From Neolewinella xylanilytica (GTDB lineage Bacteria > Bacteroidota > Bacteroidia > Chitinophagales > Saprospiraceae), in contig NZ_PTJC01000006.1 of the NCBI RefSeq assembly GCF_002934605.1, positions 806,001 to 870,000 of the forward strand: 64,000 nucleotides of DNA. Reading direction: 5' to 3'. Both the position numbers and the translations under genes were made by a program. Position 1 is the first letter of the stretch, and the number at the start of each line of letters is the position of its first letter. Below the pieces are notes generated by a model that worked only from the letters and a program-made list of their open reading frames with translations, was not told the origin of the DNA and did not search any database. Below are positions 1,970-31,239 of the stretch, one piece after another.

Positions 1970-2391
1970 AGCCGTTCAGCGGTAAGTACGGCCGAGTGCT
2001 GCGGGCCAATTCAGTCATTCACTAATTCAGTCATTCACCCATTCCTCGAAAGCCGTTCAGCGGTAAGTACGGCGGAGTGCTGCGGGCCAATTCAGTCATT
2101 CACTAATTCAGCCTTCACCCATTCCTCGAAAGCCGTTCAGCGGTAAGTACGGCGGAGTGCTGCGGGCCAATTCAGTCATTCACTAATTCAGCCATTCATC
2201 CATTCCTGGGAAGCCGTTCAGCGGTAAGTACGGCGGAGCTCTGCGGGCCAATTCAGTCATTCACTAATTCAGCCTTCACCCATTCCTCAGAAGCCGTTCA
2301 GCGGTAAGTACGGCCGAGTGCTGCGGGCCAATTCAGTCATTCACTAATTCAGTCATTCACCAATTCAGTCATTCACCAATTCAGCCATTCA
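1970..2391. repeat. Tandem array B: five ~80-bp units with octamer tail
   Basis: Five copies of a unit beginning AGCCGTTCAGCGGTAAG lie at 1970, 2051, 2131, 2212 and 2292 (period 80-81 bp). The GC-rich part differs from array A, but the AT-rich part is the same kind of octamer ladder on the opposite strand: ATTCA-based on plus, TGAATNNN on minus. Eight consecutive octamers occupy 2328-2391 and run into the 3' end of the flavoprotein gene, supplying its TGA stop. Arrays A and B face each other across about 60 bp (1911-1969) in which I see no gene. Confidence 0.9.
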
Positions 2392-2860
2392 CCAACTGCA
2401 TTTCCACCCGCGACCCCCGGACCCAGGCGTGCCGCTCCGGGCCGTACGTCATGCCGAGGTAATCGGCCGATAAGCGGAAGGGCTCGTAAAATCCGGCGTT
2501 GACGTGTCGTTCGGCGGAACAGGAAAGGACCCCCATCTCCTTCCCCCTCAGCCGTCGGCCTAAGTCCTTGTGGTAGGTAAGCAAGTCCGTCAGCCGATCG
2601 AAGAAATCCTTGAGTAAGCCGCTCATGCTATACCAGTAGACGGGGCTGGCGAAGATGATCCGGTCGTAGATGATCAGGCGCTTGGCCATCGCGATGAAAT
2701 CGTCGTCTTCGGGGTAGTTATTGCCGTAATCGTAGGGAGCGATCCGGTAATCCAGTAGGTCTACCAGTTTTCCGCCGGTTTCGGCTTCCAGTTGCAGGGC
2801 GGCTTTGGCGGTATTGCCATCGCCACGGGCGCTGCCGAGGATAATTAAGGTCTTAGCCAT
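2381..2860 (-). CDS. Flavodoxin-fold NAD(P)H-dependent oxidoreductase
   Basis: A 159-residue single-domain flavodoxin-like protein of the NADPH-dependent FMN reductase group, probably a soluble FMN-binding quinone or flavin reductase. The phosphate-binding loop GSARGDGNT is at residues 9-17 and the flavin ring contact SPVYWYSMSG at 72-81. The start is the ATG at 2860, whose A is shared with the TGA stop of ileS (TGATG overlap), so the two genes should be translationally coupled. A TTG one codon upstream is possible but unnecessary. The C-terminal residues LVNG and the stop lie inside the octamer repeats of array B, so the last few residues may be recent additions. The substrate is unknown. 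Confidence 0.85.
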   Translation of the reverse strand: MAKTLIILGSARGDGNTAKAALQLEAETGGKLVDLLDYRIAPYDYGNNYPEDDDFIAMAKRLIIYDRIIFASPVYWYSMSGLLKDFFDRLTDLLTYHKDLGRRLRGKEMGVLSCSAERHVNAGFYEPFRLSADYLGMTYGPERHAWVRGSRVEMQLVNG

Positions 2861-5800
2861 CAATTTTGCGGTTGGGGCACGGCGGAAAGGGTCACTCGTG
2901 CCGTCTGGTCACCGGGGAGCTCCAGGGCTGGAGCGTCTAGGGTTTCGGCGAAGTTCAGCGAATCGGCCAGGGTTTCTTCCATCAGGTATGCCCGATAGGT
3001 GGTGATGGCTTCCCTGACCTCGGCGGTGGCTGCCACTCGAACGTCGATCCGGTCCGTGACGTCTAGGCCCGAATCCTTCCGTAGGTTTTGGATGCGACTT
3101 ACCAGTTCCCTGGCCAGTCCTTCCCGCACCAATTCCGGTGTCACGTTGACGTCGAGGGCTACGGTGAGCTCCCCGTCGGTGGCTACCTTCCAGCCGGGGA
3201 TGTCCTCGGTGAGGATATCCACTTCGCCGGTAGTGATGTCCACGGGTTCACCGTCGAGGTGCAGGGTGTAGCTACCCTGATGTTCCAGTTCGCCGATCTG
3301 CGCTTCGGTCATTTGCCCGATGGCGGCCGCGGCGGCCTTCATTTGCTTGCCCAGGCGCTTTCCAAGCACCTTAAAATTGGGTTTGATGGTCTTCTTCAGG
3401 AAGCCATCGTCGGTCAGGAACTCAACTTCCTTGATGTTGGTTTCCGACTGAATAATGGGGGTAACATCCGCTACCCGGCGGCGGAATTCGTCGCTCAGTG
3501 CCGGCACGAGAATCTTTTGCAGCGGCTGCCGTACCCGTAGTTTTTCCCGTTTCCGCAGGCTTAGTACCAGGGAAGATATCCGCTGGGCGTAGGCCATTCG
3601 TTGTTCCAGGTCCTCGTCGATCATCTCCTCCTTGGCGCCAGATAGAAAGGTTAGGTGGACGCTTTCGATGTCACCGGCGGGGGCGAGGTTGCGGTAGAGC
3701 CAGTCGGCGAAGAAGGGGGCCACCGGCGACATCAACTGAGACACCCGCGTCAGGCAGGTGAAGAGCGTTTGGTAGGCGGCGCGCTTGTCGGTGGTCATAT
3801 CGCCCCGCCAGAAACGGCGGCGGCTTTGACGCACGTACCAGTTGCTCAGCTCGTCGTTGACGAAACTTTCGATCGCCCGGCAGGCCGGCGTGGCATTGTA
3901 TTCGGCGAAGTGGCGGGTCACCTCCCCGGTCAGTGTATTCAGCCGGCTGAGTATCCAGCGGTCGATTTCCGCCAATTCGTTCGTGGCAATTGGCTCGTCA
4001 CCCACCGGATTGTAATCGTCGATATTAGCGTACAGCGCGAAGAAGCCGTAGGTATTATAGAGGGTCCCAAAGAAGCGCCGCTGCACCTCCTTGACGCCTT
4101 CCAGGTCGAATTTCAGGTTGTCCCAGGGGTCGCTGTTGCTGATCATGTACCAGCGCGTGGCGTCCGCGCCGTAGGTATCGATGGTGAGAAAGGGGTCCAC
4201 CGCATTGCCCAGTCGTTTGGACATTTTCTTTCCCTCCTTGTCGAGCACCAACCCGTTAGAGACCACGTTCTTGTACGCCACCGAGTCAAAAACCATCGTG
4301 GCAATGGCGTGCAGGGTATAGAACCAGCCCCGGGTTTGGTCCACGCCCTCGGCAATGAAGTCGGCGGGGTAGGAGCGGTCGAAAATGTCCTTGTTTGCAA
4401 AGGGGTAGTGCCACTGCGCGTACGGCATACTGCCCGAGTCGAACCAGACGTCGATCAGGTCCAGCTCCCGCCGCAGTTTCTTCCCGTTCTTCCACAGGAC
4501 GACCTCGTCGATGTAGGGACGGTGAAGATCTTCGGGGACGCTTTGGTCTAGCTGCAGTTCGCGATTGGCGATGGCGACCTGCTCCTCCAATTCGGCCAGG
4601 GAGCCGATGCAGATTTCCTCCGCCCCGTCCTCACTGCGCCAGATCGGCAGCGGAATACCCCAGTAACGACTGCGGCTGAGGTTCCAGTCCTGCAGGTTCT
4701 CCAGCCATTTACCGAAGCGGCCTTCGCCGGTGCTGGCCGGCTGCCAGTTGATCGTCCGGTTCAGTTCCTGCATCCGCTCCTTGACGGCGCTTGACTTAAT
4801 GAACCAACTGTCAAGAGGGTAGTACAGCACGGGCTTGTCCGTCCGCCAGCAGTGCGGGTAGCTGTGGTTATACTTGGCGACGTTGAAGGCCAGGCCACGC
4901 TTTTTCAGGTGGACGGCGATATCGACATTTACGTCGACGTAGTCCTCCTCATCCTTGTAATTCTTGACGTAGCGACCGGCGAAGGGACCGGCATCCGCCG
5001 TGAAGCGGCCGGTTTTGTCTACCAGGGTAAGCGATCCGATACCATTGGCCTTCCCCACTTGCATATCGTCCGCACCGAAACTGGGGGCGGTATGTACAAT
5101 ACCCGTACCCGCCTCGGTGGTGACGAAGTCGCCCGGAATGACGCGGAAAGCATCGCCGTCGTCCGGGGTAGCGCCGGGTAATAGCTGCTCGTACCGTAAA
5201 CCGATGAGTTCCGTGCCTTTGAAGGGCTCACTTTTCGCCAGGACCTTCGGTTGGTTGTTGCCATTAAACCACTTATCGATCAAGGCCTCCGCCAGAATGA
5301 CATCAATCTTGTCCTCCGTATAGGGATTGACCGTGGTCACCCGTACGTAATCGATGTTCGGGCCTACGGTGAGAGCGGTGTTGCTGGGTAGGGTCCAGGG
5401 GGTGGTGGTCCAGGCAATCAGATACAAGGGGTTAGGGTTGCCGTCCTTAGCCCCTTCACCCCTTAACCCCTCAGCCCCTTGAACCTTAAACATGGCTACC
5501 ACCGTGGTGTCCGTCACGTCCTGGTAGGCTCCGGGCATATTGAGCTCGTGGGAGCTAAGCCCCGTACCGGCGGCCGGGCTATAGGGTTGAATGGTGTACC
5601 CCTTATAGATCAGCCCCTTATCGTAGATCTGTTTCAGCAGCCACCAGACCGACTCCATATACTCCCGCTCGTAGGTGATGTACGGGTTATCGAGGTCGAC
5701 CCAGTAGCCCATCTTGCGGGTGATGTCGTCCCAACGGTCCTTGAAGCGCATCACGGTTTCCCGGCACGCTTTGTTGTAGTCGTCGACGCTGATTTTATCC

Positions 5801-6120
5801 CCGATGTCTTCTTTGGTGATGCCGAGCTCCGATTCCACCTTCAGTTCGATAGGAAGCCCGTGGGTATCCCATCCGCCCTTCCGTTCGACCCGCTTTCCCT
5901 GTAGCGTTTGAAACCGGCAGAACATATCCTTGATCGTCCGGGCCATGACATGGTGGATGCCGGGCTGCCCGTTCGCGCTGGGCGGACCTTCGTAAAAGAC
6001 GAAGGAGTTATCGGTGGGACGTTCCTCGATGCTGCGACGGAAAATATCGTTCTCCTCCCAGAAGGCGAGGATTTCCTTGTCGATGGCCGGTAAGTCCAGG
6101 TTCTTGAATTCCTTATACAT
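2860..6120 (-). CDS. ileS: Isoleucine--tRNA ligase
   Basis: Class I aminoacyl-tRNA synthetase charging tRNA-Ile in the cytoplasm, with an editing domain against valine. The protein starts MYKEFKNLDLPAIDKEIL, typical for Bacteroidota IleS. The HIGH-type motif is PGIHHV near residues 53-58 and the KMSKR loop lies near residue 632 (about 4214-4228). At about 1086 residues it is a normal length. I chose ATG 6120 because the upstream in-frame TTG at 6147 lies in the T-run of a terminator and would not be transcribed as part of a useful start. Upstream is an Ile-rich leader peptide and an attenuator (6146-6281). Downstream, a small flavoprotein gene overlaps by one base. Confidence 0.98.
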   Translation of the reverse strand: MYKEFKNLDLPAIDKEILAFWEENDIFRRSIEERPTDNSFVFYEGPPSANGQPGIHHVMARTIKDMFCRFQTLQGKRVERKGGWDTHGLPIELKVESELGITKEDIGDKISVDDYNKACRETVMRFKDRWDDITRKMGYWVDLDNPYITYEREYMESVWWLLKQIYDKGLIYKGYTIQPYSPAAGTGLSSHELNMPGAYQDVTDTTVVAMFKVQGAEGLRGEGAKDGNPNPLYLIAWTTTPWTLPSNTALTVGPNIDYVRVTTVNPYTEDKIDVILAEALIDKWFNGNNQPKVLAKSEPFKGTELIGLRYEQLLPGATPDDGDAFRVIPGDFVTTEAGTGIVHTAPSFGADDMQVGKANGIGSLTLVDKTGRFTADAGPFAGRYVKNYKDEEDYVDVNVDIAVHLKKRGLAFNVAKYNHSYPHCWRTDKPVLYYPLDSWFIKSSAVKERMQELNRTINWQPASTGEGRFGKWLENLQDWNLSRSRYWGIPLPIWRSEDGAEEICIGSLAELEEQVAIANRELQLDQSVPEDLHRPYIDEVVLWKNGKKLRRELDLIDVWFDSGSMPYAQWHYPFANKDIFDRSYPADFIAEGVDQTRGWFYTLHAIATMVFDSVAYKNVVSNGLVLDKEGKKMSKRLGNAVDPFLTIDTYGADATRWYMISNSDPWDNLKFDLEGVKEVQRRFFGTLYNTYGFFALYANIDDYNPVGDEPIATNELAEIDRWILSRLNTLTGEVTRHFAEYNATPACRAIESFVNDELSNWYVRQSRRRFWRGDMTTDKRAAYQTLFTCLTRVSQLMSPVAPFFADWLYRNLAPAGDIESVHLTFLSGAKEEMIDEDLEQRMAYAQRISSLVLSLRKREKLRVRQPLQKILVPALSDEFRRRVADVTPIIQSETNIKEVEFLTDDGFLKKTIKPNFKVLGKRLGKQMKAAAAAIGQMTEAQIGELEHQGSYTLHLDGEPVDITTGEVDILTEDIPGWKVATDGELTVALDVNVTPELVREGLARELVSRIQNLRKDSGLDVTDRIDVRVAATAEVREAITTYRAYLMEETLADSLNFAETLDAPALELPGDQTARVTLSAVPQPQN

Positions 6121-6145
6121 GCGGTAGACGGGACGTTGGGGATGC

Positions 6146-6186
6146 AAAAATAAAAAGCTCCGATCGGGCGAGTCCGTCGGAGCTTT
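6146..6186 (-). terminator. Attenuator terminator in the ileS leader
   Basis: On the minus strand, AAAGCTCCGA (6186-6177) pairs with TCGGAGCTTT (6163-6154). An inner CGG/CCG extends the stem, and the hairpin is followed by TTATTTTT (6153-6146). It sits between the leader peptide stop (6212) and the ileS start (6120). A competing pairing is available: GTCCG and AGCT around the leader stop (6219-6209) can pair with AGCT and CGGAC (6184-6172), which includes the 5' arm of the terminator. This is the geometry expected for ribosome-mediated attenuation. Folding was done by eye. Confidence 0.85.
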
Positions 6187-6211
6187 GAGTCGGGTTCGTA
6201 CAACAGCCAGC

Positions 6212-6268
6212 TTACGGACACAAGGTGCCGGAAATAATTATGGCGTCGCTAATTGAACCCGTTTTCAT
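6212..6268 (-). CDS. Isoleucine leader peptide of ileS
   Basis: An 18-codon open frame reading MKTGSISDAIIISGTLCP then TAA. Four of its 18 codons are Ile, including a run of three (ATA ATT ATT at 6241-6233), with ATA otherwise unexpected in a GC-rich genome. It starts 5 nt after a perfect TATCTTTG box (6281-6274), so its mRNA is probably leaderless. It is followed by an intrinsic terminator and then ileS. The inferred role is that stalling at the Ile codons when charged tRNA-Ile is scarce leaves the sequence around the stop codon free to form an antiterminator, so ileS is transcribed. Peptide-dependent attenuation is well known for biosynthetic operons; I infer it here from layout alone. Confidence 0.8.
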   Translation of the reverse strand: MKTGSISDAIIISGTLCP

Positions 6269-6273
6269 AAGTG

Positions 6274-6281
6274 CAAAGATA
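6274..6281 (-). promoter_or_regulatory. -7 box of the ileS leader promoter
   Basis: The minus strand reads TATCTTTG, an exact match to TAnnTTTG. The leader peptide ATG (6268) follows after 5 nt. I find no TTG at the usual 17-23 nt upstream, so the -33 element is weak or absent. Confidence 0.75.
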
Positions 6282-6360
6282 AGCTTTTGCCGCCAAGCGG
6301 TGAGGTGGCCCCTCAAAAGCGGGAGAAAATGCGGAATCTTGGGGGGGAGTAGAAAAAAAA

Positions 6361-6391
6361 TTGGCCGATTCCTTTACAGTAATTAAATTTA
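6361..6391 (+). promoter_or_regulatory. Candidate promoter of a short transcript
   Basis: TTG at 6361-6363 and TAAATTTA at 6384-6391 are spaced 20 nt apart, matching the Bacteroidota TTG-N17-23-TAnnTTTG layout except for the last base. It would start a transcript near 6398 that meets an intrinsic terminator at 6479-6503. Confidence 0.45.
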
Positions 6392-6397
6392 TTTTAC

Positions 6398-6503
6398 CTT
6401 AACGGGGCGTTAAACCGGTAGATAATGCTGCTGGTCTACGCAAGAATTAGTTTTCATTTGGTTTTTTGGGGTTATTGGGAGGCAACTTGTTGCCTCTTTT
6501 TTT
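6398..6503 (+). ncRNA. Candidate ~105-nt small RNA or leader RNA
   Basis: This stretch lies between a plausible promoter and a very clear terminator, and is followed about 160 bp later by an SDR gene that has its own operator region. An ATG at 6425 opens a frame rich in aromatic residues, but that frame runs through the terminator and into the SDR upstream region, so I do not call it a protein. It resembles no RNA family I can name. Either a free-standing small RNA or a terminated leader would fit. Confidence 0.3.
6479..6503 (+). terminator. Intrinsic terminator upstream of the SDR gene
   Basis: A perfect 8-bp stem GAGGCAAC / GTTGCCTC (6479-6486, 6489-6496) with a 2-nt centre is followed by seven T (6497-6503). 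It points along the plus strand, where no protein gene precedes it, so it ends the candidate short transcript. Confidence 0.8.
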
Positions 6504-6593
6504 ATGTCTGCTCGGAACGGTTGACCATAGCAGGCGAGCGATTCTCTCTTCCAGGAAAGTCTAATTATCGGAGGCCGAGAAACTTAATTGTGG

Positions 6594-6603
6594 AACGATC
6601 GTT
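6594..6603. promoter_or_regulatory. Operator-like palindrome 1 (AACGATCGTT)
   Basis: A perfect 10-bp palindrome, 60 bp before the SDR start. It shares the ACG-nn-CGT pattern with a second palindrome whose centre is 25 bp downstream. It is a plausible half of a TetR-type operator for the regulator at 7509. Confidence 0.45.
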
Positions 6604-6615
6604 TCCTTTTGAAAA

Positions 6616-6631
6616 TGTAACGAACGTTACA
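6616..6631. promoter_or_regulatory. Operator-like palindrome 2 (TGTAACGAACGTTACA)
   Basis: Seven-base perfect arms TGTAACG and CGTTACA around a 2-bp centre, 31 bp before the SDR start and just downstream of a TTTTG (6607-6611) that could be the -33 element. Size, symmetry and the adjacent TetR gene make it a good repressor-site candidate. Confidence 0.6.
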
Positions 6632-6662
6632 GAATTGTTTCACTCTTTTAATCTGGATCAAG

Positions 6663-7418
6663 ATGACAGACTTAACAGGAAAGATCGCGGTCGTAACCGG
6701 CGGGAATTCCGGAATTGGCTACGCTACGGCAGAACGACTGAAGGCGGACGGGGCGCGGGTGATCATTACCGGACGTTCCCCGGAGCGAGTGACGGAGGCC
6801 GCCGCAGCCCTCGACGTGGTTGGTTTGGTGGCCGATGTGAATTCGGTATCCGCGTTAGGCCGACTCGCCGATGAAGTAAAGGCGCTGGTGGGCAGCATCG
6901 ATATTCTTTTCATCAACGCCGGGGTATTTGAACCGGCCCCGCTGGGAAGCATCTCGGAGGACATGTTCGACCGGCAGATAGGCATCAACTTCAAAGGGGC
7001 GGTGTTCACCCTGGAAAAGTTCTTGCCCATTCTCAACGACGGCGCTTCGGTGGTGAATCTTTCCTCCATCAATGCCTACACCGGCATGGCGAATACGGCC
7101 ATCTATTCTGCTTCCAAAGCGGCGATGAATTCGTTCACCCGTACGGCGGCGACCGAGCTGGCCCCCCGCAAAATCCGGGTAAATGTCGTCAATCCTGGTC
7201 CGATCAAGACCGCCATTTTCGGTAAAAGCGGACTGTCGGAAACGGATCTGAACGGTTTTTCGGTGGCGATGGAGCAACGGGTTCCGCTCAAACGATTCGG
7301 CGAGCCGTCGGAAGTGGCGCATCTCGTTTCGTTTCTAGCGTCTTCGGAGGCTTCCTTCATTACCGGCGGGGAGTACAACATCGACGGAGGGCTTAATATC
7401 AATCCGCTAATGAACTAA
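6663..7418 (+). CDS. SDR family oxidoreductase
   Basis: A 251-residue classical short-chain dehydrogenase, an NAD(P)-dependent cytoplasmic enzyme of unknown substrate. The nucleotide-binding motif TGGNSGIG is at residues 12-19, the NAG motif near residue 80, and the catalytic set is Ser135, Tyr148 and Lys152 (YSASK). The C-terminal GGEYNIDGG segment is typical. It is followed by a codirectional TetR regulator that has its own promoter, and preceded by two related palindromes that look like operators. The likely arrangement is a small substrate-inducible module in which the TetR protein represses the SDR. SDR genes of this type next to TetR regulators are common and often act on xenobiotic or carbonyl compounds; that is family knowledge only. 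Confidence 0.9.
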   Translation: MTDLTGKIAVVTGGNSGIGYATAERLKADGARVIITGRSPERVTEAAAALDVVGLVADVNSVSALGRLADEVKALVGSIDILFINAGVFEPAPLGSISEDMFDRQIGINFKGAVFTLEKFLPILNDGASVVNLSSINAYTGMANTAIYSASKAAMNSFTRTAATELAPRKIRVNVVNPGPIKTAIFGKSGLSETDLNGFSVAMEQRVPLKRFGEPSEVAHLVSFLASSEASFITGGEYNIDGGLNINPLMN

Positions 7419-29961: not shown

Positions 29962-31239
29962 TTAGGTCTTCCGCTTTTTCTTCTTCGCCGCGGGAAACAG
30001 GATGTTATTGAGAATCAGCCGATAGCCCGGGCTGTTGGGGTGCAGGCTGAGGTCCGTCTCCGGGTCGTTGACGAGGTGGCGGTAATCGGCCGGATCGTGG
30101 CCACCGTAAAAGGTAAAGAAGCCCTCTCCGAACTGGCCGTGGATATAACGGGCTTCGCTGGCGGGTTTGTTTTCGCCGAGCACCAGGACGCTGCTCTTGA
30201 TGTGCTGGTTGCGGAACGCGGTGGTCTGTCCCATGAATCCCTTGACGGTACGTACGTGGTTTTGGGTCAGCATGGTCGGTACCGGGTCCCACTTGGCACT
30301 GAAGTCGAAAAGGGTGAAGTAGTCCTGCTCCGGTGTGACCGGCCGCGGATTATGATCGATGGAACTGAATTCGTATTCCAGGGGGTTACGCTCCAACTGG
30401 AAATTTTCGAAGGCGAAGGTTTTGCTGAAGTCCAACTTTTCCTGGGCCTGGGGATCAATGCCGTCACCGTCGTAGTATTGGGCATTAATGTCCACTCCGT
30501 CGGCGGCCAGGGCAATGTCGTAGCTATCCGTAGCCGAGCACATGGCGAACATGAAACCTCCGCCGCCGACGTACTCCCGTACCTTTTTTACGACGCCGAG
30601 CTTTAGCTGACTCACCTTTTCGTAACCGTTAGCGGCCGCCAACTCTTCCTGGTAAGCCACCTGCCGCCGGTACCAGGGGGCCGTATGAAAGCTGCGGTAA
30701 AAGCGTCCGAACTGCCCGGTGAAGTCTTCGTGGTGCAGGTGCAGCCAGTCGTATTCTGCCAGCTCGTCGTTGAGGACTTCCGTGTCGTAAATGGTTTCGT
30801 AGGGAATTTCGGCGTAGGTAAGTACCAAGGTAACTGCATCGTCCCAGGGCTGGACCTCGGTGCCCTCGCGAAAGTTATAATCGGGGGTGTAGACGGCGAT
30901 CTTCGGTGCCTTTTCGAGCTTCATCGCGTCCATGTTGCGTTCCGGGTCGGCGATCTCCTCGAGGATGCCATTGAAGCGGGTATCGGGGATCACTTCGTAT
31001 TTCACGCCCCGCGTCAGACACTCCCGCTCGAAGGCCCGGCTGTGCTGAAAGGCGAAGCTGCCGCCCCGGTAATTGAGCAGCCACCAGGCTTCGATGTCGT
31101 TGTTCAGTACCCAAAAAGTAATACCGTACGCTTTCAGGTGATCCGTCTGGGTCTCGTCCATCGGGATCAGAATGGTGGAAGCCCGGGCCACGGTGGCCAA
31201 CACGACAAAGAGCAGAAGGAGGGGGAGTTTGCGGTACAT
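29962..31239 (-). CDS. Conserved exported protein (often named asparagine synthetase B)
   Basis: A 425-residue secreted protein with a signal peptide (MYRKLPLLLLFVVLATVARA) and a lysine-rich tail (KKKKRKT). It opens STILIPMDETQTDHLKAYGI, a start I know from Bacteroidota proteins that are auto-named asparagine synthetase B. I see none of that enzyme's signatures: no N-terminal Cys glutaminase and no SGGLDS ATP motif. The product name is therefore probably wrong. Conserved blocks include EAWWLLNYRGGSF, FMFAMCSATDS and FFTFYGGHDPADYRH, the last ones suggesting a ThuA/glutaminase-like fold. The function is unknown. Confidence 0.8.
   Translation of the reverse strand: MYRKLPLLLLFVVLATVARASTILIPMDETQTDHLKAYGITFWVLNNDIEAWWLLNYRGGSFAFQHSRAFERECLTRGVKYEVIPDTRFNGILEEIADPERNMDAMKLEKAPKIAVYTPDYNFREGTEVQPWDDAVTLVLTYAEIPYETIYDTEVLNDELAEYDWLHLHHEDFTGQFGRFYRSFHTAPWYRRQVAYQEELAAANGYEKVSQLKLGVVKKVREYVGGGGFMFAMCSATDSYDIALAADGVDINAQYYDGDGIDPQAQEKLDFSKTFAFENFQLERNPLEYEFSSIDHNPRPVTPEQDYFTLFDFSAKWDPVPTMLTQNHVRTVKGFMGQTTAFRNQHIKSSVLVLGENKPASEARYIHGQFGEGFFTFYGGHDPADYRHLVNDPETDLSLHPNSPGYRLILNNILFPAAKKKKRKT

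Follow-up and report, generated by a model that had tools for sequence, protein, structure and literature searches.

Leader-peptide attenuators have been reported or predicted at the aminoacyl-tRNA synthetase genes pheST, trpS and leuS (PMC1262725), and leader peptides have been predicted for hisS paralogs in bacilli (PMC2965389). The isoleucyl-tRNA synthetase gene ileS is described under T-boxes (PMC1262725). In the Bacteroidota, a phylum without Shine-Dalgarno sequences, leader-peptide attenuation has been inferred for amino-acid operons of Flavobacterium psychrophilum (PMC9723704). The locus analysed here lies upstream of ileS on the minus strand of the window, as the whole stretch of 64,000 nt of Neolewinella xylanilytica DNA will be called. 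It resembles pheST of gamma-proteobacteria and leuS and trpS of Streptomyces in that a cognate leader ORF, a terminator and an antiterminator precede a synthetase gene, but those systems concern other amino acids and other phyla (PMC1262725). The His leaders of bacilli are similar in that a predicted leader peptide replaces a T-box before the synthetase gene hisS, although their amino acid is His and not Ile and their phylum is Firmicutes (PMC2965389). F. psychrophilum belongs to the Bacteroidota and offers the same -7 box and clues to leader-peptide attenuation at biosynthesis operons, whereas its synthetase genes appear only with structured 5' UTRs and ileS is not named in the main text of that source (PMC9723704). 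The Rfam family Bacteroid-trp (RF01692) is likewise a candidate RNA of Bacteroidetes (PMC2864571). It was not among the matches in the window. Bacteroid-trp is a Trp leader. No report of an ileS leader peptide was found in the literature searched, which was searched by titles and had most subscription journals outside it. The class of mechanism is already known, and the target gene and the lineage look new. The original prediction of an Ile leader at ileS as a new way of sensing charged tRNA-Ile can thus be kept for its gene and lineage but not for its principle, since leader-peptide attenuation at synthetase genes is established (PMC1262725; PMC2965389).

The prediction had placed upstream of ileS, in minus-strand order, a box, an 18-codon ORF, an intrinsic terminator and the ATG of ileS, and all of these elements are present in the sequence. 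The features are as follows, with coordinates in the window.

6274..6281, minus strand: P1 box TATCTTTG, putative sigma-A -7 box of the attenuated promoter, read from the sequence 5 nt before the leader ATG.
6268..6269, minus strand: predicted transcription start, giving a 5' leader of 1 nt or none, from the box position in F. psychrophilum (PMC9723704).
6212..6268, minus strand: leader peptide ORF MKTGSISDAIIISGTLCP, ATG to TAA, an Ile-cluster ORF conserved upstream of ileS.
6241..6249, minus strand: strand 1 of the P1 helix, reaching from the codons that precede the Ile run into that run, pairing with 6200-6209 (fold and duplex energies).
6200..6209, minus strand: strand 2 of the P1 helix, right after the leader stop codon (fold and duplex energies).
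6214..6219, minus strand: antiterminator 5' strand GTCCGT, which overlaps the stop codon at the 3' end of the leader ORF; all 14 aligned genus sequences have it unchanged.
6172..6177, minus strand: antiterminator 3' strand ACGGAC, within the 5' arm and loop of the terminator (pairing in genus and family).
6154..6186, minus strand: intrinsic terminator hairpin with a T-rich run after it, missed by a simple consensus scan and picked up by a folding-based scan (-18.7 kcal/mol); its helix covaries in the family.
6145..6152, minus strand: P2 box TATTTTTG, a putative second -7 box that overlaps the T run of the terminator, 24 nt before the ileS ATG.
2860..6120, minus strand: ileS, isoleucyl-tRNA synthetase of 1086 aa (Pfam PF00133 over cut-off; NCBIfam TIGR00392).

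The four Ile codons of the leader are ATT, ATA, ATT and ATT at codons 6, 10, 11 and 12, the last three being consecutive, as had been stated. Pairing of the leader-stop region with the 5' arm of the terminator was also seen, as complementarity of GTCCGT with ACGGAC and, in addition, of AGCT (6209-6212) with AGCT (6181-6184). The fold of 6143-6268 reached -45.4 kcal/mol (z -4.5), and none of 200 shuffles was as strong. The identity of the downstream gene is supported by 1012 bits with the TIGR00392 equivalog model against a cut-off of 621, and its nearest named relatives are ileS genes of Neolewinella, with 81 and 84% protein identity (the genome has 5.4 Mb). A start of ileS at TTG 6147, given by the mechanical ORF call, was rejected; relatives align from ATG 6120, and the TTG lies within the T run. 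Beyond the leader, the next gene (6663-7418) lies on the strand opposite to ileS, and the divergent intergenic region carries, at 6477-6498 on the plus strand, a terminator-like hairpin GGGAGGCAACTTGTTGCCTC with a T run. Mupirocin is an inhibitor of IleRS. With the exception models MupA and MupB, whose cut-offs are 1900, the IleS of the window also reached 801-803 bits, and its sensitivity to mupirocin is uncertain because these scores are high though far below the cut-offs.

The arrangement is very probably a ribosome-mediated leader-peptide transcription attenuator that tunes ileS to the supply of charged tRNA-Ile, a reading supported by the anatomy of the region (conserved ORF, terminator and covarying antiterminator). 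The classical constituents of an attenuator were found: a short ORF in which codons for the pathway's amino acid are clustered, both in presence and in specificity; an intrinsic terminator between ORF and gene; and a mutually exclusive antiterminator whose 5' strand a ribosome positioned on the stop codon would cover. RNA polymerase would start at P1 and a ribosome would follow it on the short ORF. With ample Ile-tRNA, the ribosome would reach the stop codon and cover GTCCGT, so that the terminator would form and transcription would end before ileS. Under a shortage of Ile-tRNA, the ribosome would stall on the Ile codons and leave the end of the leader free to pair with the 5' arm of the terminator before the 3' arm is made, which would allow readthrough into ileS. 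In an untranslated leader, the region of the Ile codons would pair with the segment after the stop codon and termination would be favoured. Finally, P2, located just past the terminator, would probably give ileS transcription that bypasses the switch. Stalling, readthrough, the activity of both promoters and leaderless translation are parts of this scheme that we infer.

Taken alone, the leader of the window, with four Ile in eight codons, is unexceptional, and the conservation of the arrangement was followed in the ileS upstream regions of 130 genomes of the same family. These came from 195 family genomes with an ileS match (some matches may be paralogs); L010, with 21 nt upstream, was left out, and the other 129 regions were each 300 nt or longer. 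ATG ORFs of 8-45 codons with at least four, five or six Ile in any eight codons were detected in 61, 48 and 33 of the 129 regions, respectively, against 10, 1 and 0 on the reverse strand and a mean of 4.9, 0.3 and 0.0 (maximum 9, 1 and 0) in 20 repeats of dinucleotide shuffling. The cluster was specific for Ile: at five or more in eight, other amino acids gave 2 ORFs for Ser, 1 for Lys and 3 for Leu, and at six or more no amino acid besides Ile appeared in these 129 regions. Some of the 61 ORFs at the lowest threshold look accidental. An Ile-clustered ORF (at least three Ile in eight codons) followed by a terminator was present in 59 of 129 regions, the distance from stop codon to stem being 17-36 nt in 57 of them; seven further regions had a terminator without such an ORF, and by the scan used 70 regions had no paired leader and terminator. 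A frequent core of the leaders is IIISIII (for example MKTFQHIIISIIITSLPCNLR), and one genus member, G378, has a leader with only three Ile (MKPLFFIYGSIIRLAPCP) and a terminator, with no clear box. The conservation of the Ile ORF and the terminator upstream of ileS in relatives, proposed as a check of the idea, therefore held in part of the family. The observation is confirmed as real and far above chance, and the case for the window is strong because relatives carry the leader and not through its own leader alone, which scores only 4/8.

The Ile codon ATA occurs in the leaders of 14 of 14 model-matching genus genomes, although in ileS itself (first 3000 nt, four genus loci) it accounts for 0-2 of 51-57 Ile codons. 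Over 15 leader loci, its share was 20% of leader Ile codons versus 9.1% in ileS. The ATA of the leader may be a regulatory rare codon or may be kept by RNA pairing, two effects that are not separable here. Because codons and RNA pairing overlap, part of the conservation of the leader could be structural.

The competing RNA structures were evaluated in an alignment (A1) of 55 regions from 37 genera, obtained from the 59 paired regions after dropping L120, L155, L202 and L213 as weak. The terminator helix was paired in 97.7% of cells, with a covariation of 0.396 versus 0.203 in shuffles and 81 cells changed on both sides versus 22.0. In the family, the antiterminator forms between the end of the leader, commonly CAATCTG, and CAGATTG in the 5' arm and loop of the terminator. 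It was paired in 80.6% of cells versus 69.7 in shuffles, its covariation was 0.321 versus 0.167 and 50 cells were changed on both sides versus 17.5, and none of 500 shuffles reached any of these three values. Two weaker measures were less decisive, since 44 of 500 shuffles were as high for pairs changed on both sides and 7 of 500 for further pair types. When the register was slid, pairing of the antiterminator was at most 39.1%. Within the genus, all 14 sequences keep five of the six pairs of the GTCCGT/ACGGAC helix, and 13 of them keep the outermost pair as well. In agreement with the claim of mutually exclusive structures, both the terminator and the competing antiterminator covary in the 55 selected regions. 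Duplex energies gave the same picture across the 55 loci: cognate antiterminator duplexes averaged -14.11 versus -10.69 for permuted ones (z -9.8), and cognate P1 helix duplexes -9.00 versus -6.33 (z -10.4), with 0 of 5000 permutations reaching the value in either case. This signal lies in the averages, the own strand being the best or tied partner at 8 of 55 loci for the antiterminator and at 4 of 55 for the P1 helix. The support for the P1 helix consists of the duplex energies; its MAFFT columns were out of register in A1 and the column counts were dropped. At the level of sequence, the ORF, its Ile specificity and conservation, the covariation of terminator and antiterminator and both boxes are in evidence.

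Folding of the 55 regions under an assumed ribosome geometry (ribosome stalled at the second Ile codon of the cluster, RNA made up to the terminator loop, ribosome edge taken as 13 nt, no shuffle control) gave a pattern consistent with such a switch. In the stalled state, before synthesis of the 3' arm, an antiterminator of at least five pairs was part of the minimum-energy fold in 50 of 55 regions. In the stop-codon state, the terminator was formed in 55 of 55, and the 5' strand of the antiterminator fell inside the assumed footprint of the ribosome at the stop codon in 54 of 55. Once the RNA of the stalled state was complete, the terminator was more stable at equilibrium in 50 of 55 regions, and antitermination must therefore be kinetic, that is, a race.

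With respect to promoters, 31 of 55 regions had a P1 box at most 45 nt from the leader ATG (shuffle mean 1.5, maximum 6). Fifteen genus genomes are listed, and in all 14 that are model-positive the box precedes the leader-frame ATG by 4-5 nt. In F. psychrophilum the -7 box occupies -12 to -5, and 5.5% of mRNAs are leaderless (PMC9723704). A box in that position with a spacing of 4-5 nt places the start at the ATG or one base before it, and the leader ORF of the genus is therefore predicted to be leaderless. Extension of this property to the whole family was discarded, the spacing being 4-8 nt in 11 of the 31 boxed regions and 10-32 nt in the other 20. In 39 of 55 regions a second box, TAnnTTTG, follows the terminator and precedes ileS (shuffle mean 4.2, maximum 10); the count is 34 of 55 when the box is required to be fully beyond the T run, and 9 of 14 among the genus genomes. 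Among the 70 regions outside the paired set, which include L013 and L152 with Ile-rich ORFs and no terminator by the filter, a box was found at most 120 nt from ileS in 52 (shuffle mean 5.1). P2 is thus probably the basal, unattenuated promoter of ileS, in front of which an attenuated P1 would have been placed. The original prediction had counted ileS transcription starting downstream of 6146 as evidence against attenuation; such a start does not speak against it, since the probable P2 follows the terminator. P2 may carry much of ileS transcription, in which case the effect of attenuation would be smaller.

The frequency of P2 boxes, with and without leaders, makes P2 look like the ordinary ileS promoter and leads to the alternative that best survives: the terminated unit from P1 would act mainly as an insulator or as a stand-alone small RNA or peptide, P2 would drive ileS and there would be little readthrough from P1. 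The genome G383, where Uma2 and DUF433/DUF5615 genes separate attenuator copies from ileS, points in the same direction. This alternative is nevertheless improbable, as the Ile specificity of the leader matches the downstream gene, a conserved antiterminator would be useless in an insulator and the window genome has one match to model R1 below E 0.01, at ileS (E 6.8e-5; next match 0.48). An even smaller probability attaches to sensing of tRNA by a T-box-like element or another riboswitch beside an incidental ORF. Several Actinobacteria have a predicted T-box ahead of ileS, and most synthetase genes of Firmicutes are under T-box control (PMC1262725), but no T-box was matched at E <= 5 in window positions 5500-7000 or at E <= 1 in 15 relatives, no Rfam family reached its gathering threshold in the window or in these relatives, and the Ile codons belong to what is conserved. 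In the 15 relatives, His_leader, Thr_leader and Phe_leader scored at best 33.1, 32.7 and 26.8 bits, their cut-offs being 49, 55 and 55, and none of the three was among the window matches. A chance ORF beside the ordinary terminator of an upstream transcript can be practically dismissed: four Ile in 18 codons is not extreme, with shuffles averaging 4.9 of 129 regions at four or more in eight, but the family-wide ORF, terminator, duplex-energy and covariation statistics contradict it, and with gene 6663-7418 on the other strand no upstream transcript needing a terminator was seen.

The Ile leader-peptide attenuator of ileS has a restricted distribution. When 80 named ileS loci were scanned (up to 600 nt upstream), nine were flagged; six of them are convincing (L036, L037, L045, L046, L050 and L054), all from Saprospirales, and L055, L063 and L094 had only three Ile in eight codons. 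Three of the convincing loci, L036, L045 and L046, come from the cultured strains Neolewinella aquimaris DSM 105137, N. litorea HSMS-39 and Flavilitoribacter nigricans DSM 23189. No convincing case was obtained from L060-L115 (56 loci, mostly of other orders and a few with short upstream regions), among which L063 and L094 were flagged. L056 has an Ile leader and no terminator by the filter. A phylum-wide scan with the model matched 13 of 395 genomes at E <= 5e-4. Two of these are the window genome and G006, both at ileS, nine belong to other orders of the class and one to another class; six of those ten, plus G279 of the same order, had no IIISI-type leader. Several weak matches outside the family are terminator-like hairpins, and matches were counted only if ORF and gene fitted. 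The original scope, Bacteroidota, was therefore too wide: the leader holds, patchily, for Saprospirales, and convincing cases were found nowhere else. On an IleS tree of 50 rows chosen from the 110 loci L006-L115, 21 of them leader-bearing, the leader required 11 changes, versus a mean of 16.3 in shuffles, one of 500 being as low as 11. For this count, L010 was scored as lacking the leader only since no more than 21 nt of contig precede ileS there (the model does match at the end of another contig of this genome, G015), and L013 and L056 were scored as leader-bearing, with no terminator there passing the T-run filter. A single origin of the leader was rejected, as the pattern on the tree is clustered but patchy, so it would reflect repeated loss, transfer or both. 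In a separate case, L259 (G383, contig 86, 29296-30240; ileS at 30897), two copies of an IIISI-type leader with terminator are present, the first followed by a Uma2 gene and the second by DUF433 and DUF5615 genes before ileS.

Leaders of related composition were found at other genes. The remaining four of those ten matches from other orders or another class of Bacteroidota (L285, L286, L290 and L293) have IIISI-type leaders, rich in Ile or in Ile and Val, and a terminator ahead of a branched-chain aminotransferase gene, all four genes with Aminotran_4 and the three tested over the cut-off of the ilvE equivalog. These ilvE leaders have a core, (N or H)IIISI, similar to that of the ileS leaders and followed by a terminator, but they precede a biosynthesis gene and in three of four the cluster contains Val codons. 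The ilvE leaders and the ileS module possibly share an origin. The window genome itself carries a Trp leader, MQMTNTNWWWLNRTPE (NWWWLN; L274, 713-763), before a trpE-like gene whose best NCBIfam model is trpE, below cut-off, and a His leader, MILSVHHHHIVFSRPVGER (VHHHHI; L276), before hisG. A GC-rich hairpin follows each leader, seen by folding at hisG and by eye at trpE, and at the hisG leader no terminator passed the T-run filter. Attenuation of trp in this genome seems to follow the same pattern. In L276, tRNA-Phe(gaa) (2277-2350, minus strand) abuts the His leader ATG at 2276 with no gap, and processing of the tRNA could leave a leaderless His leader mRNA. In the same genome, with start codons taken mechanically, no leader was recognised in the roughly 420-450 nt that precede pheS, leuS, ilvD, the two remaining PF00133 genes and the four PF01063 genes. 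In other families of the order, a Trp leader (HWWWHS) occurs before a trpE-like gene (L256) and a Val/Ile leader (VVSIIIVI) before ilvD (L260).

A more speculative proposal, which is doubtful as it stands, is that Neolewinella has a compressed switch, with a leaderless ORF and a U-run that doubles as the -7 box of P2, and that this switch shares its origin with the ilv leaders through a change from Val to Ile. If true, polymerase reading through from P1 would cross P2, coupling attenuated and basal transcription at one spot, and the ribosome would load on the leader without any 5' leader.

In conclusion, the cell can probably make more IleRS when charged tRNA-Ile runs short, as far as the arrangement of the locus indicates. 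The presence of P2 raises the question of how much of the expression of an essential synthetase is left open to attenuation. Where ileS of Actinobacteria is under a T-box (PMC1262725), this lineage would rely on a leader peptide. The attenuator would give the Bacteroidota a sensor of charged tRNA-Ile at a synthetase gene that is defined and open to testing, and attenuation with a leaderless leader ORF may have a natural model in Neolewinella.
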